Source: Saccharopolyspora gloriosae (GTDB taxonomy: Bacteria > Actinomycetota > Actinomycetes > Mycobacteriales > Pseudonocardiaceae). Taken from it: a stretch of DNA of 64,000 nucleotides. Below, one piece after another: positions 11,260 through 50,235 of this stretch; the first letter of the stretch is position 1, and each line of letters starts with the position of its first letter. The notes beneath the pieces are model-generated. The model was not told the origin of the DNA. It saw only the letters and a list, made by a program, of their open reading frames with translations, and searched no databases. A program made the position numbers and the translations under genes. Location of the stretch: positions 6,263,501-6,327,500 of the forward strand of contig NZ_JACHIV010000001.1 in NCBI RefSeq assembly GCF_014203325.1, in the 5' to 3' direction.

Positions 11260-11607
11260 TCACATGCCGGGCAGGCCGAGGCCGCCCAGTCCCTGACCGC
11301 CCAGCGCGCCGGTCACCGGACCCATCTTCTCGGCCTGCAGCTCCTGCGCCGCGCGGTTCGCGTCGCGCACCGCGGCCACCACCAGGTCCGAGAGGGTCTC
11401 GGTGTCCTCGGGGTCGGCGGCCTTCGGGTCGATGTCGACCGACTTCAGCTCGCCCGTGCCGCTGACGACCGCCGTCACCAGGCCGCCGCCCGCGGTGCCG
11501 GTGGCCTCCGCGTCGGCGAGTTCCTGCTGCGCGGTCATCAGCTGCTGCTGCATCTGCTGCGCCTGTTCCATGATCTGCTGCATGTTCGGCTGGCCACCCG
11601 GTTGCAC
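11260..11607 (-). CDS. ybaB: YbaB/EbfC nucleoid-associated protein
   Basis: A 115-residue DNA-binding protein. The GTG at 11607 is chosen because GGGAGG precedes it by about eight bases. The internal ATG at 11583 ('[14 protein letters not shown]') is the alternative. A Gln/Met-rich N-terminal helix is followed by the EbfC core ('[14 protein letters not shown]', '[14 protein letters not shown]') and a Gly-rich tail. The homodimer coats DNA and is normally co-transcribed with recR, as here. Its upstream region holds four 47-bp palindromic repeats. Confidence 0.95.
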
Positions 11608-11803
11608 CGTGGTCCTCCCAGAGCTGTTCTTGGTCACCGCTGGAGTTCGCCGCGTGGCGTTCGCACCCGGCGTTCCGGTCGCGTGACCGGTCCGAACCCA
11701 GCGTGGGCACGTGCCCGAACCGGGCACACCACCAGGGTAGTCGTGCCCCGCCGCCACCCGGCGCAACCACCCAGCATGTCCCCCACGCCGCCCACCGACC
11801 GCG

Positions 11804-12141
11804 GTGAACGGACCGCTTGTCCAACGGGATCGGACGAACGGGCCGTTCACCGCACCACGCACCCTGCACCTCGGAGATGCAGTGAACGGACCGTCCGTCC
11901 AACGGGATTGGGCGAACGGTCCGTTCACCCGGACCCGCAGCCCGGGGCGACGGCTCGGTTGAGCTTCCGAGGCCCTGGCAGGGGTGGAGTGAACGGACCG
12001 CTTGTCCAACGGGATCGGACGAACGGGCCGTTCACTCGAAACCGGCGCGGCCCCAGCGGACGGCACCTCCGCGTCGTGGTGTGGAGCGGATGGGGTGAAC
12101 GGACCGTTCGTCCAACGGGATTGGGCAAGCGGTCCGTTCAC
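11804..12141. repeat. Array 1: four 47-bp palindromic repeats
   Basis: Four units of exactly 47 bases occupy 11804-11850, 11882-11928, 11989-12035 and 12095-12141, separated by 31, 60 and 59 bases. Each has two 21-base arms around a 5-base centre. The left arm is close to GTGAACGGACCGTTCGTCC plus AA and the right arm is its near inverse. Each arm contains the smaller palindrome GAACGG-N-CCGTTC. The centre reads CGGGA on the plus strand in all four. Units 1 and 3 carry CGCTTGTCC in the left arm, and unit 4 has GCAAGCGG in the right arm. They fill the divergent gap between ybaB and the S9 peptidase gene. Confidence 0.95.
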
Positions 12142-12287: not shown

Positions 12288-14093
12288 ATGGCGGTGGACA
12301 TGGTGCGGTTGCTGGAACTGGCGAGCTGGCGGGCGTTCGACGTGGACGAGGCGGGACGAGTGCTCGCCGGGTCAGACGAATCGGGCTCCACCCAGCTCGT
12401 GGAGCTGTCCCCGAACGGCCGCGTCACGGCGCTCACCGCCCTGTCCGGTGCCGTCACCGGCCGCTACCTGCCCGGTGAGCGGGCGGCGATCATCCAGCAC
12501 GACACCGGCGGCAACGAACGCGGCCAGCTCTCCCTGATGCGCCTGGACCGCCGCCGCACCCGGCCCGCCGAACTCGGCGACCTCCAGCCGCTGGTGCGCG
12601 ACCCGAGGTACGTCCACCGGCTGCTCGACGTGCTGCCCGGCCGGCTCGTGTACTCCACGAACAGGCGCAACGGGGTCGACTTCGACGTCGTCATCCGCAG
12701 CGCCGTCACCGGCGAGGAAATCGTCGTCTACGACGGCGGCGGCATGGTGCAGGAGGTCGTCGCCTCCCCCGACAGCCACTACCTGGCGCTGACGCTGCCC
12801 GGCGCGCAACCGATGTCCGACCGGATCCTGCTGGTCGACACGATGCCCGCCACCGCCGACGAGCGGTTCCGGCCCCTCACCGGCCTCGGCGAGCACACCC
12901 GCAGCACCCACATCCGCTGGCTGCCCGACGACTCCGGGCTGATCGTGAGCACCAACGCCGACCGGGACCGCACCGGTGTCGCCCGCCTCGACGCGCGCAC
13001 CGGGCAGCGCACGTGGCTGGTGACCTCCGAGGAGCACGACCTGCTGGGCTGGTTGTCCCCGGACGGGCGCACGCTGCTGGTGCAGACCAACGAGGACGGC
13101 GCCGCGAGGCTCGCGCTGCACGACGCGCGGACCGGGGAGCTGCGCCGCTCGGTGCCGCTGCCCGGCGACGGGTGGTGTTCGTTCCCGCTGCCCGCACCGG
13201 TGTGGTCGCCGGATTCGCGGCTCATCGCCCTCTCGTTCAGCTCGCCGGAGGTGCCCGGCGACGTGCTGGTGATCGACGCCGAGCAGGAGGCGCCGCCGAT
13301 CACGATGACCGACTCCGCCGCCGCGCTCGCCGGTGAACGGCTCGCGACGCCGACCGCGCACCGGGTGCCCGGCGCCGAGGTGCCCTGCTTCGTCTACGAA
13401 CCCGCCGAGCCGACCGGCTCCTCCGTGCTGATGATCCACGGCGGCCCGGAAGGCCAATCGGTGCGCACGTTCAACCCCGTCGTGCAAGGACTCGCCGCGC
13501 AAGGGCACACCGTGCTGGTGCCGAACGTGCGCGGCTCCACCGGCTACGGCAAGAGCTGGTACAGCGCCGACGACGGGCGCAAGCGGCTGGACTCGGTGCA
13601 GGACTTGGCGGCGTTGCACGAGTGGCTCCCGCAACTCGGCCTCGACCCGGCCCGGTCGGCGTTGTGGGGCGGTTCGTACGGCGGGTACATGGTGCTGGCG
13701 GGCCTGGCCTTCCAGCCGCGGCGGTGGGCGGCCGGGGTCGACATCGTGGGCATCTCGTCGCTGGTGACGTTCCTGGAGAACACCTCGCCGTACCGTCGGG
13801 CGCACCGGGAGCGGGAGTACGGATCGCTGGCCGACGACGCCGATTTCCTGCGCGAGGCGTCGCCGCTGACGCACGTGGACGAGATCTCCGCGCCGCTGTT
13901 CGTGATCCACGGGGCGAACGACCCGCGGGTGCCGCTGTCGGAGGCGGAGCAGCTCGCGGAGGCGGTGCGCCGCAACGGCGTCGAGTGCGAACTGCTCGTG
14001 TTCGACGACGAGGGCCACGGCTTGGCGAAGCGCTCCAACCGCTTGAACGCCTACCCCCGCGCCCTGGCGTTCCTCACCCGCCACCTCATCTGA
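12288..14093 (+). CDS. S9-family prolyl oligopeptidase-like serine peptidase
   Basis: A 601-residue cytosolic protein with no signal peptide. Residues about 1-340 look like a beta-propeller with repeated 'SPDG/SPDS' turns. The C-terminal alpha/beta-hydrolase domain carries the triad: Ser463 in GGSYGGY, Asp545 in 'ANDPRVP' and His577 in 'DEGHGL'. 'VLMIHGGPEGQ' supplies the oxyanion region. Such acylaminoacyl/prolyl oligopeptidases cut short peptides. The gene runs opposite to ybaB-recR and dnaX and is flanked on both sides by 47-bp repeat arrays, which sets it apart as a module. ATG at 12288 is followed by a second Met at codon 5. Confidence 0.92.
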   Translation: MAVDMVRLLELASWRAFDVDEAGRVLAGSDESGSTQLVELSPNGRVTALTALSGAVTGRYLPGERAAIIQHDTGGNERGQLSLMRLDRRRTRPAELGDLQPLVRDPRYVHRLLDVLPGRLVYSTNRRNGVDFDVVIRSAVTGEEIVVYDGGGMVQEVVASPDSHYLALTLPGAQPMSDRILLVDTMPATADERFRPLTGLGEHTRSTHIRWLPDDSGLIVSTNADRDRTGVARLDARTGQRTWLVTSEEHDLLGWLSPDGRTLLVQTNEDGAARLALHDARTGELRRSVPLPGDGWCSFPLPAPVWSPDSRLIALSFSSPEVPGDVLVIDAEQEAPPITMTDSAAALAGERLATPTAHRVPGAEVPCFVYEPAEPTGSSVLMIHGGPEGQSVRTFNPVVQGLAAQGHTVLVPNVRGSTGYGKSWYSADDGRKRLDSVQDLAALHEWLPQLGLDPARSALWGGSYGGYMVLAGLAFQPRRWAAGVDIVGISSLVTFLENTSPYRRAHREREYGSLADDADFLREASPLTHVDEISAPLFVIHGANDPRVPLSEAEQLAEAVRRNGVECELLVFDDEGHGLAKRSNRLNAYPRALAFLTRHLI

Positions 14094-14115: not shown

Positions 14116-14529
14116 GTGAACGGCCCGTTCGTCCCATCCCGTTGGACGAACGGTCCGTTGCCCTGCCCAAAGCACCCTCCCGACGCAGACCCGATGAGAG
14201 TGAACGGACCGTTCGCCCAATCCCATTGGACGAACAGGCCGTTCACCCCGCCCAGAGCACTCGCCCGCGCCGTCGGGACCCACTGGTGCGTGAGTGAACG
14301 GACCGTTCGCCCAAACCCGTTGGACAAGCGGCCCGTTCACTCCGTCGACCTTGAGCCGCGCCGGAACGCCGATCGCGGCGGCAGCGCCTCGGTTCGGAGT
14401 GAACGGACCCTTCGCCCAATCCCGTTGGACGAACAGGCCGTTCACCCTGCCCAAAGCCCGTCCCGACGCAGACCCGATGAGAGTGAACGGCCTGTTCGTC
14501 CAATCCCGTTGGACGAACGGGCCGTTCAC
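14116..14529. repeat. Array 2: five 47-bp palindromic repeats
   Basis: Five units of 47 bases lie at 14116-14162, 14200-14246, 14294-14340, 14399-14445 and 14483-14529. They share arms with array 1, but the centre reads TCCCG (or TCCCA/ACCCG) on the plus strand, so the array is inverted relative to array 1. The first unit has lost its terminal TTCAC. The 37-base spacers after units 1 and 4 are nearly identical (both end CGACGCAGACCCGATGAGA), showing that unit plus spacer (84 bases) was duplicated. The array lies between the convergent S9 peptidase and dnaX genes. Confidence 0.95.
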
Positions 14530-14586
14530 TCAGTCGCGAGCGTGGTGGCGGCGGTGTGCTCGGGAGCTGCGGTTCCGCGCACGAGA

Positions 14587-14620
14587 AACGGCGCACGCCC
14601 GGATCCGGGCGTGCGCCGTT
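14587..14620. terminator. Perfect 34-base palindrome, bidirectional terminator
   Basis: AACGGCGCACGCCCGGA and its exact inverse form a palindrome at 14587-14620, followed on the plus strand by TTCTTCTTG. It lies 28 bases past the dnaX stop and beyond array 2, so it can end transcription from both convergent genes. Confidence 0.75.
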
Positions 14621-14648: not shown

Positions 14649-17030
14649 TCAGTCGTCGATCTTGCGGGCGCCGAGTTCGGCGGCGAAGAGCTCGACGGCC
14701 TCCTCCTCGCGGTCGCGGCGCGGAGCCGCTTCGGCCTCCGAGGCCGGGGAGGAGCCCGCGATCATGGCTTCCTCGTCCTCGTCGTCCGGCGGCGGTGCGG
14801 GCGGGAGGGCGTCTTCCGGTGGCGGCTCGTCGTCCGGCGGCGGCTCCGGCGGCGGCGGGATGTCGTCGGAAGACGACCGCGCACGGCCGTTGGCCCCGGA
14901 CGGCCGCGCGGGGCGCTCCGGGGCGGATTTGCGCTGGCCACCGTTGCCGGAGTCCGGCGCGGGCTGCTGCGCCTGCGCTTGCTGCCGGGCGGCGCTCGGG
15001 CGGCTGTAGGTCGGCGGAGCGGCGGGCGGCGGCGGTTCCTTCTTCGCACCGTTGCCGGCCGAGCCCGCACCGGCGGGGCGCTGCGGAGCGGGCGCGGACC
15101 CTGCTTCGACGCACCGCACCTCGTAGTCCGGCCCCGCGCCGAGCACCTCGCTCATCGCCTCGCGCACGAAGTCGATGCGGCGCTGCTGCGCGAACTGCTT
15201 CACCAACCCGGAGGTGGGCATCGTCAGCACCAGCGCGCCGTCGACGTAGTCGTGCACCGTGGCGTTGAGCAGCAACGCCTGCGTCGGCCGATTGCGCTGC
15301 GCCACGGCCCGCAGCAGGTCCGCCCACACCCGGCGCACGTCGGCGGCGCCGAAGCCTGCGGAGTGCGCGGCGCCCGGTTCGGCGACGGCGGGCTCGGACG
15401 GTTCGGACTGCGGGGGCGCGGCAGCGGGGCGAGCCGGTTCCTGCGACGCGGCGGGAGCGCTCGGGCGTCGATCCGCGTCGCCGTTCGCGGCGGGCGCCGG
15501 GGCGGCGGGCTGTTCAGCGGGAGCGGCGGGTTGCTGCTGCGCGACCGGCTGCTCGGGCTCCGGTTCGCGCTGCTCGTTCGCGGGCCGCTGCTCGGCCGCC
15601 GGCCGTTCGACCGCAGGCCGTTGCTCGGCGGGCTGCTCGGCGGCGGGCCGCTGCTCGGCGGCGGGTTCGCTCGCGGCCTTCGGCGCGGCGGCCGGCGCCT
15701 GCCGGTCCGCGCCGTCGGAGCCGCCGGACGCCTGCCGGTCGCTGGGCCGCTGGAACACCCGCCGACCACCTGCCGGAGCCGCCTCCGCAGCGGGAGCGGC
15801 AGTGGCAGCGGGAGCGGGAGCGGGAGCCGAGGGAGCAGCGCCGGATTCGGCCGGAGCCGCCGGGGGCGCCAGCGTCATCCGCCGCTCGACCTGCTCGACG
15901 CGTTGCAGCAGCGCGCTTTCCGCCTCGGACACGGCGGGCAGCATCATCCGAGCGCACAGCAGTTCCAGCAGCAACCGAGGAGCGGTCGCCCCGCGCATGT
16001 CCTGCAGCCCGGTGTGCACGATCTCCGCGTACCGGGACAGCGTGGCCGCGCCGAGCTGCTCGGTCTGGCTCTGCATCTTGGTGAGCTCGTCGCCCGCCGT
16101 GTCGATGAGCCCGCGGGTGCCCGCGTCGGGCACGGCGTGCAGCAGCACGAGGTCGCGGAGCCGGTCGAGCAGGTCGGCGGCGAAGCGGCGCGGGTCGTGC
16201 CCGGCTTCGACGAGCTTGTCCACGGTGCCGTACACCGATCCGCCGTCGCCTGCGGCGAGCGCGTCGACCATGTCGTCGATCAGCGCCACGTCGGTGACGC
16301 CGAGCAGCGCCACGGCCCGCTCGTAGGTGACGCCTTCGTCCCCGGCCCCGGCGAGCAGCTGGTCGAGCACGCTGAGCGTGTCGCGCGCCGAGCCGCCGCC
16401 CGCGCGGATCACCAGCGGGTACACGGCCGGTTCGACCTGCACGCCTTCGTCGCCGCAGATGCGTTCGAGCAGGTCGCGCATGACGCCGGGCGGCATCAGC
16501 CGGAACGGGTAGTGGTGCGTCCGGGACCGGATGGTGGTGAGCACCTTGTCCGGTTCGGTCGTGGCGAACACGAAGATGAGGTGTTCCGGAGGTTCCTCGA
16601 CGATCTTCAGCAGGGCGTTGAAGCCCTGCGTGGTGACCATGTGGGCCTCGTCGATGATGAAGATCCGGTACCGCGACTGGGCGGGCGCGAAGAACGCCCG
16701 ATCGCGCAGTTCGCGGGTGTCGTCGACGCCACCGTGGCTGGCCGCGTCGAGTTCCACGACGTCGACGCTGCCGGACCCTTCCGGGGCCAGCGCCACGCAC
16801 GAGTCGCACTCACCGCACGGGTCCGGCGTCGGGCCTTGGGCGCAGTTCAACGACCGGGCGAGGATGCGCGCGCTGGAGGTCTTGCCGCAGCCGCGAGGCC
16901 CGGAGAACAGGTAAGCGTGGTTGATGCGCTGCGCCGACAGTGCGGTGCGCAGCGGTTCGGTGACGTGCTCTTGGCCGACGACCTCTGCGAAGGTCGCCGG
17001 ACGGTACTTGCGGTAGAGGGCGAGCGCCAC
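14649..17030 (-). CDS. dnaX: DNA polymerase III subunit gamma/tau
   Basis: A 793-residue clamp-loader ATPase. The GTG at 17030 gives 'MALALYRKYRPATFAEVVGQ', the conserved DnaX start. Walker A GPRGCGKT lies at about 44-51, zinc cysteines at about 63, 72, 75 and 78, DEAH at 127-130 and 'TTEPDKVLTTIRSR' (sensor/arginine region) further on. Domain III follows to about residue 370. Then comes a roughly 180-residue Ala/Pro/Glu/Gln-rich linker, a tau-like domain ('GFGAADVRRVWADLLRAVAQ') and another Pro-rich acidic tail. The linker is low-complexity, as in other actinobacteria. It lies just downstream of the SRP RNA gene. Confidence 0.97.
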   Translation of the reverse strand: MALALYRKYRPATFAEVVGQEHVTEPLRTALSAQRINHAYLFSGPRGCGKTSSARILARSLNCAQGPTPDPCGECDSCVALAPEGSGSVDVVELDAASHGGVDDTRELRDRAFFAPAQSRYRIFIIDEAHMVTTQGFNALLKIVEEPPEHLIFVFATTEPDKVLTTIRSRTHHYPFRLMPPGVMRDLLERICGDEGVQVEPAVYPLVIRAGGGSARDTLSVLDQLLAGAGDEGVTYERAVALLGVTDVALIDDMVDALAAGDGGSVYGTVDKLVEAGHDPRRFAADLLDRLRDLVLLHAVPDAGTRGLIDTAGDELTKMQSQTEQLGAATLSRYAEIVHTGLQDMRGATAPRLLLELLCARMMLPAVSEAESALLQRVEQVERRMTLAPPAAPAESGAAPSAPAPAPAATAAPAAEAAPAGGRRVFQRPSDRQASGGSDGADRQAPAAAPKAASEPAAEQRPAAEQPAEQRPAVERPAAEQRPANEQREPEPEQPVAQQQPAAPAEQPAAPAPAANGDADRRPSAPAASQEPARPAAAPPQSEPSEPAVAEPGAAHSAGFGAADVRRVWADLLRAVAQRNRPTQALLLNATVHDYVDGALVLTMPTSGLVKQFAQQRRIDFVREAMSEVLGAGPDYEVRCVEAGSAPAPQRPAGAGSAGNGAKKEPPPPAAPPTYSRPSAARQQAQAQQPAPDSGNGGQRKSAPERPARPSGANGRARSSSDDIPPPPEPPPDDEPPPEDALPPAPPPDDEDEEAMIAGSSPASEAEAAPRRDREEEAVELFAAELGARKIDD

Positions 17031-38222: not shown

Positions 38223-38277
38223 GGGCGCGAACGCCCCACCCGCCCGGTGCCGCCGGGCGCACGGGCCGTTCGCGCCC
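38223..38277. terminator. Compound hairpin between gtrA and a convergent gene
   Basis: GGGCGCGAACG at 38223-38233 pairs with CGTTCGCGCCC at 38267-38277. An inner GCCCGG/CCGGGC hairpin sits between. Both flanking genes converge on it. Confidence 0.65.
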
Positions 38278-50188: not shown

Positions 50189-50235
50189 GTGAACGGACCG
50201 TTCGTCCCGTCCCGTCGGGCGAACGGTCCGTTCAA
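50189..50235. repeat. Solitary 47-bp palindromic repeat
   Basis: This has the same length and arms as the arrays at 11.8-12.1 and 14.1-14.5 kb. The centre reads TCCCG, so the orientation matches array 2. The arm tips next to the centre have changed to CCCG and TCGGG, and the last base is A instead of C. It lies between the M28 peptidase and the next gene, both on the plus strand. Confidence 0.93.

Follow-up and report, generated by a model that had tools for sequence, protein, structure and literature searches.

A dispersed 47-bp dyad element of Pseudonocardiaceae forms intergenic arrays near stop codons with a preferred helical spacing

The array at 11804-12141 of the window (the whole 64,000-nucleotide stretch of Saccharopolyspora gloriosae that was analysed) is one local cluster of copies of a non-coding DNA element, a 47-bp dyad that occurs dispersed in Pseudonocardiaceae. 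The analysis showed for this family a high copy number, a strict length and an intergenic place near stop codons, as well as copy numbers that vary from species to species at a given gap, recently duplicated units in some arrays, and a preferred helical spacing of neighbouring copies.

The array consists of four units on the plus strand at 11804-11850 (core CGGGA on the plus strand), 11882-11928, 11989-12035 and 12095-12141, each exactly 47 bp long with two 21-base arms around a 5-base centre, which confirmed the coordinates and layout given by the sequence-only reading. The palindromes had been called strict and are in fact imperfect, with 17, 19, 17 and 18 of the 21 arm pairs being Watson-Crick in units 1 to 4. 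The 13-base palindrome GAACGG-N-CCGTTC, said to be contained in every arm, is exact in four of the eight arms and carries one mismatch in one arm and two mismatches in three, and the box centres lie 30 bp apart as claimed. The left-arm variant of units 1 and 3, which are identical to each other, and the right-arm variant of unit 4 were present as described. The 21+5+21 layout with at most four mispairs was fitted at 15 places in the window (neighbouring registers counted), and the same scan of ten Markov-1 sequences gave 0, 1, 0, 0, 0, 0, 0, 1, 0 and 0 places, which excludes a chance origin of the palindromes.

All ten copies reported for the window are real. A second array of five units on the minus strand, with a core orientation opposite to that of the first, is located at 14116-14162 (two end mismatches), 14200-14246, 14294-14340, 14399-14445 and 14483-14529, and a single copy with one end mismatch is located at 50189-50235 on the minus strand, with a predicted stop codon 6 bp before it. 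The first array lies in the divergent gap between a YbaB/EbfC gene (11260-11607, minus strand; PF02575, 5.2e-33) and an S9 peptidase gene of the prolyl-oligopeptidase family (12288-14093, plus strand; PF00326, 4.6e-44), the Pfam profiles agreeing with the earlier assignment of both genes, and the second lies in the convergent gap between the S9 gene and a dnaX-like gene (14649-17030, minus strand; PF13177, PF12169). The S9 protein of Saccharopolyspora sp. NFXS83 shows 98% identity to that of the window, and no 47-bp element was found in the 11.8-kb S9 locus of Saccharopolyspora flava (S9 protein 72%).

Other features were observed beside these copies. A hairpin of 47 bp at 38227-38273, between two convergent predicted genes, has three mismatches at its ends; it was a doubtful eleventh copy that was dropped, and it is probably an unrelated terminator. 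At about 14565-14620, between the second array and dnaX, lies another strong hairpin, GC-rich and with a T-rich stretch after it, which is also present in the congener G005 and is a candidate ordinary terminator. The ybaB frame remains open across the whole first array up to a GTG at 12141 (window 11260-12141, minus strand; 293 aa), and this extended frame encodes repeated peptides. Automatic annotation could over-extend ybaB or call the array repeat peptides as genes.

For counting, an exact-ended copy was defined as GTGAACGG-N31-CCGTTCAC, with the reversed pattern as control. The source genome (G000; 6.83 Mb, one contig) holds 163 such copies and its five congeners (G001-G005) hold 70, 72, 125, 84 and 120, while the control pattern gave none in any of these six genomes. 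The family thus reaches beyond the locus as proposed, and confinement to the locus, which the sequence-only reading had named as evidence against itself, does not hold. Matches were observed in 15 of 150 Pseudonocardiaceae genomes and 8 of 46 genera, and at class level in 4 of 296 genomes, namely G000 and three single matches in one other genus. Decayed copies also exist, and 464 kb of G000 contained 105 exact-ended copies, 32 with one end mismatch and 9 with two. When the inner gap was allowed to range from 16 to 46 in G000, the total rose only from 163 to 166, with 163 of the 166 at 47 bp. The 47-bp share in ten other genomes was 70/77 (G001), 72/80, 125/133, 84/92, 120/125, 24/26 (G010), 4/5, 31/31 (G040), 11/13 and 2/4 (G114), so the earlier claim of fixed length is upheld outside the source genome as well.

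In the column counts of 147 copies, the only conspicuous positions outside the 47 bp are -1/0 (G/A) and 48/49 (C/T), and the two ends behave alike. With A/G at 0, T/C at 48 and then G and C further out, the element extends to 51 bp through these looser R..Y and G..C pairs, and the outer flank pairs are uncoupled (71 AT, 35 GT, 33 AC and 7 GC). The core is CGGG in G000 and G005, CTAG in G004, and CTAG or ATAG among the copies listed for G001 and G002; the commonest core is AACGGGATT in G000, and GATCTAGTT and AACTAGATC in G004. By eye, a TCTA motif recurs at the centre of many copies in G001, G004, G040, G073 and G114; G000 mostly has CCCG/CGGG instead.

Placement was determined on 464 kb of G000, in regions chosen for holding copies, with gene calls from a purpose-made simple codon-usage caller. 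These regions contain 148 elements (one doubtful and later dropped) in 47 arrays of 1 to 6 units, and no element lies inside a called gene. Arrays occupy 22 of the 72 convergent gaps, 18 of the 267 tandem gaps and 7 of the 70 divergent gaps, an excess in convergent gaps over all other gaps (p = 6e-7). The median distance from array edge to codon in the same regions is 19 bp for stop codons (62 edges) and 132.5 bp for start codons (32 edges). Elsewhere, the 15 elements of G040 gave 6 convergent, 7 tandem and 1 divergent array, with one element in or over a called gene, and the median distance to the stop codon was 17 bp in G040 (19 edges), 22 bp for the 28 elements of G001 and G002 (35 edges) and a looser 51 bp for the 10 elements of G010 (14 edges). 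Copies are concentrated in a dense region, where 64 of the 163 exact-ended copies of G000 fall within 240 kb, and the matching 260 kb holds 40 of 125 copies in G003 and 52 of 84 in G004. The dense region sits roughly 1 Mb from the origin, as judged from the gene, read by eye as dnaA, with which G003 begins. A common gene function beside the arrays was considered and rejected, since ten flanking proteins of the dense region belong to unrelated Pfam families.

The start-to-start distances of neighbouring copies cluster near 63, 74, 85, 96, 108, 119 and 131 bp. The best period was 11.05 bp with R = 0.40 (G000, G003, G004 and G005 pooled, alike spacers removed, n = 176), and a fit with zero offset gave 10.73 bp per turn. 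After jittering by up to 8 bp, none of 1000 sets reached the observed value in G000, G003 or G004, and G005 alone was weak, with 155 of 1000 jittered sets as high (n = 8). When like spacings were collapsed per gap across species, the signal remained (n = 125, R = 0.38, 0/2000; by genome 0, 1 and 0 of 1000). At a given gap, one species mostly has other spacings than the next, so shared ancestry is no simple source of the period. For strict copies beyond the first regions the mean cosine was 0.22 +/- 0.12 (n = 37), and held-out arrays, with period and phase fixed beforehand, gave 0.308 +/- 0.098 (z = 3.1, 52 collapsed spacings). With the 10.73 fit this held-out set had a mean cosine of 0.24 (z = 2.4), and with the period left free 36 of 2000 sets were as high. 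By genome, the held-out z was 2.6 in G000 and 1.8 or 1.2 in G005 (n = 21), part of whose held-out gaps are shared with the training region of G000.

The period was observed in both neighbour orientations (same, 76 pairs, R 0.38; opposite, 10 pairs, R 0.58). Over two steps, R at 10.7 was 0.107 versus 0.152 expected for independent sums, indicating that phase is lost and there is no long-range register. Spacers are 16-85 nt long with a median of 50, unlike the near-constant spacer length of a CRISPR. Two tight arrays in G000, L231 from 2966 and L232 from 3022, have 5 and 6 units at a near-constant spacing of 62-64 bp, unlike most arrays, which are spaced 84-120 bp. The tendency of neighbours to lie about whole turns apart suggests, without proving, side-by-side protein binding, and keeps the earlier idea of paired binding sites as a possibility.

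The alternative offered by the sequence-only reading, selection on the fold, found no support among the G000 copies, where 1575 paired cells were counted versus 1577.8 +/- 8.2 in shuffles. No coupling of the arms among copies was observed in G003 (712 vs 711.2) or G004 (647 vs 662.1) either, as is expected for independent half-sites, and the arms do vary independently in the source genome, as had been claimed. Fold selection was rejected on the uncoupled arms of these three genomes, whereas in G073 the inner seven pairs are coupled within the genome (69/77; 2 of 2000 shuffles) because several stem types occur there. No such coupling was seen in G010 and G040 (262 and 165 of 2000 shuffles). Between genera the arms are coupled, with 368 of 406 paired versus a shuffle mean of 282 and maximum of 312, in a set of 58 copies made up of every exact-ended copy listed for eight genomes plus 13 of G040's 31; this coupling reflects few independent changes, since relatedness is kept in the counts. 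One example of the change between genera is a paired shift of the arms from ACCGTTC/GAACGGT to AACTTTC/GAAAGTT, by which the 13-bp box is lost. A palindrome of palindromes is accordingly not the general design, as other genera often have the AACTTTC-like inner arm with the box broken and the arms still complementary. Half-sites that are free in each copy, with a preferred sequence that shifts on both sides between lineages, fit the arm data, and a fold that needs pairing in every copy fits them poorly.

The gaps that hold arrays are largely kept from species to species. Among 138 gaps compared between G000 and G003, 17 array-bearing gaps were shared, 1 was found only in G000, 1 only in G003 and 119 were without arrays; between G000 and G004 the numbers were 15, 2, 2 and 116 (135 compared). 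In smaller regions the gaps shared, in G000 only and in the other genome only were 2/0/0 for G003 (18), 2/0/0 for G005 (21), 1/1/0 for G004 (16), 0/2/0 for G002 (5 gaps) and 2/1/0 for a second contig of G005 (12 gaps). Within one gap the number of units differs. Between the S9 gene and dnaX, G002 has 12 bp and no unit, G004 has 64 bp and one unit, G003 has 229 bp and one decayed unit, G005 has 381 bp and three units, and G000 has 555 bp and five. An origin of the spacers as captured DNA was considered and rejected. Of 97 spacers searched against the fetched stretches of G000 and its relatives, 13 resemble a second spacer within their array, one matches elsewhere in G000 and four match rows in relatives; some array units are recent duplicates and other spacers are unique in the searched DNA. 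The likeness of elements at the same gap, compared with that of any pair, was 0.853 vs 0.851 for G003, 0.842 vs 0.843 for G004 and 0.884 vs 0.867 for G005. Since same-gap copies are no more alike than any two and the core varies between species, turnover of the elements is indicated.

At a shorter distance, G001 and G002, the closest pair, are about 99% identical. Among the 20 elements found in 160 kb of G001, 18 were matched by a G002 copy, one is absent there and one lies beyond the aligned part. The absent copy is missing together with about 100 bp of flank, and no clean 47- or 51-bp gap was found. Changed sites between the two genomes numbered 15/915 in elements and 31/2030 in flanks within 120 bp (p = 0.87), compared to 145/16363 in far intergenic DNA and 724/124106 in coding DNA, so the elements change at the flank rate and sequence constraint is weak. 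The outer 8+8 bp seem slower (1/288 vs 13/558, p = 0.04), in one post hoc split on ends that had been used to pick the elements.

Enteric REPs lie near gene 3' ends, and iterons and looping operators are phased protein-binding arrays. Intrinsic terminators of actinobacteria can lack a U-tract and occur singly or in tandem. In PMC3733652, REP palindromes are described as about 20-40 bp long, of high copy number and outside genes, and most of the dispersed palindromes studied in bacteria are interpreted either as mobile REPs that depend on a RAYT or as hairpins of RNA; there and in PMC2817692, REP families are tagged GTAG or CGTC at one end, and in the latter the neighbouring units of BIMEs alternate in orientation. 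As far as these descriptions go, the present family resembles REPs and BIMEs in consisting of short dispersed palindromes with more than 100 copies per genome that are extragenic, clustered and near gene 3' ends. It differs from them in its length of 47-51 bp rather than 20-40, in its near-symmetry and helical spacing, in the missing GTAG/CGTC tag (147 copies), in the absence of a Y1/RAYT gene from four of the six congeners, and in the core orientation of neighbours, which is mostly shared (76 of 86 scorable pairs) instead of alternating. The element was not found described in a limited search of the open-licence PMC literature, which agrees with the earlier statement that no described element has this layout. 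Its kind, the dispersed intergenic palindromes of the REP/BIME type, is well known, although the family has neither the REP tag nor a consistent RAYT partner. The helical spacing is not described as far as this search reached. A fixed-length family without REP tag, without Y1 transposase in most congeners examined and without sign of RNA-strand selection, yet with a helical spacing signal, departs from the usual readings of bacterial palindromes.

The reading that we favour, held tentatively and at somewhat less than an even chance, is that the family is REP/BIME-like and consists of double-stranded sites which a putative protein bridges. It is favoured since it alone accounts for length, dyad and spacing together. 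The element would act as double-stranded DNA, a putative symmetric protein would bind the dyad and touch the protein on the next copy, and this contact would be easiest with copies separated by roughly a whole number of turns, from 6 to 12. Arrays would become longer or shorter through unequal recombination among their repeats. The likely use would be architectural, with the arrays serving as bridged sites for boundaries or topology downstream of genes and in convergent gaps, in the manner of BIMEs in enteric bacteria. Like iterons and looping operators, the family has dyad sites about whole helical turns apart, with the spacing signal weak in G005 alone; unlike them, it is genome-wide, lies past genes and not at an origin or promoter, and is weakly constrained in one species pair. 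That weak constraint in G001/G002 is the main point against bridged sites, and no binding protein, ChIP record or structure was found for the element.

The strongest rival, unlikely in our estimate but well worth weighing, is a mobile non-autonomous element (REPIN- or MITE-like), its transposase present or lost, that was afterwards inherited vertically, with arrays and spacing as by-products of insertion, for example of insertion next to an older copy by way of a small DNA loop. Many copies that are alike yet decaying, one sequence type per lineage, arms symmetric between genera and uncoupled within G000, G003 and G004, copies as variable as their flanks, and the turnover indicated by same-gap copies of G000 versus G003 and G004 would all be expected from it. 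However, a search for the Y1 family (PF01797) gave no Y1/IS200-type transposase in G000, G003, G004 and G005, which carry 84-163 copies; it gave one Y1 transposase gene in G001 and two in G002 (L139, L140, L141), so PF01797 is present in two of the six congeners including G000. A RAYT as driver was rejected because Y1_Tnp is missing from G000 and three of the five other congeners, though a RAYT may have been lost. Typical MITEs are longer than the 47-bp element, which shares with MITEs and other TIR-derived miniature elements its inverted-repeat, non-coding and dispersed nature, but the flank columns show no target-site duplication, and neither a partner transposon nor an intact larger element with such ends was found in 464 kb of G000, where half-elements are few and isolated. 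The one copy seen to differ between G001 and G002 is missing with about 100 bp of flank and leaves no clean gap of 47 or 51 bp. A phage or plasmid origin was rejected, as nothing matched in either collection, and this also speaks against mobility.

A hairpin acting at the RNA level at gene 3' ends, as a U-tract-less intrinsic terminator or mRNA 3'-end stabiliser and often in tandem, ranks below mobility and appears quite unlikely. The place 10-25 bp past stop codons, the convergent-gap excess, a placement that is alike in G040 and G001+G002 and looser in G010, and the strong hairpin potential of the consensus (-39 kcal/mol as RNA) are shared with such terminators. Unlike them, the element is a fixed-length sequence family with no sign of RNA-strand selection. 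Along transcription, GT and AC mispairs numbered 129 and 134 in all (tandem 60/51, convergent 43/73, divergent 26/10), and this indifference to transcription direction, together with arms uncoupled in three genomes, leaves little support for a selected RNA hairpin. The U-tract of a standard intrinsic terminator is missing, as no T-run was found beyond position 47 in the column counts. Moreover, unit 1 retains only -25 kcal/mol, 7 of the 47 arrays lie in divergent gaps, the array at 11804-12141 among them, and the spacing period would be left unexplained. Two related candidates were rejected: other hairpins seemed scarce in array gaps, as if terminators had been replaced (9 of 21 vs 77% of 35), but length-matched fragments explain this (mean 7.1 of 21); and the nine matches listed for Rfam were all far below gathering scores. 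Least probable of all is an old repeat family without present role, left in tolerant places and shuffled by recombination, its period an accident of ancestry. Neutral-like divergence in G001/G002, the unequal duplication of units (13/97 spacers) and spacers that are otherwise unique are consistent with such leftovers, but the period outlasts the cross-species collapsing of like spacings, is present in held-out arrays, and comes with same-gap spacings that usually differ between species.

Under the favoured reading of bridged double-stranded sites, a further and rather doubtful step would make the arrays genome-wide boundary (insulator-like) sites in Pseudonocardiaceae, located past genes and in convergent gaps, with a putative symmetric protein bridging dyads at 6-12 turns and the rich stretch of about 250 kb perhaps forming a structured domain. 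If the spacing reflects a bridging protein, the arrays would be a countable and testable mark of chromosome organisation in this antibiotic-rich group.
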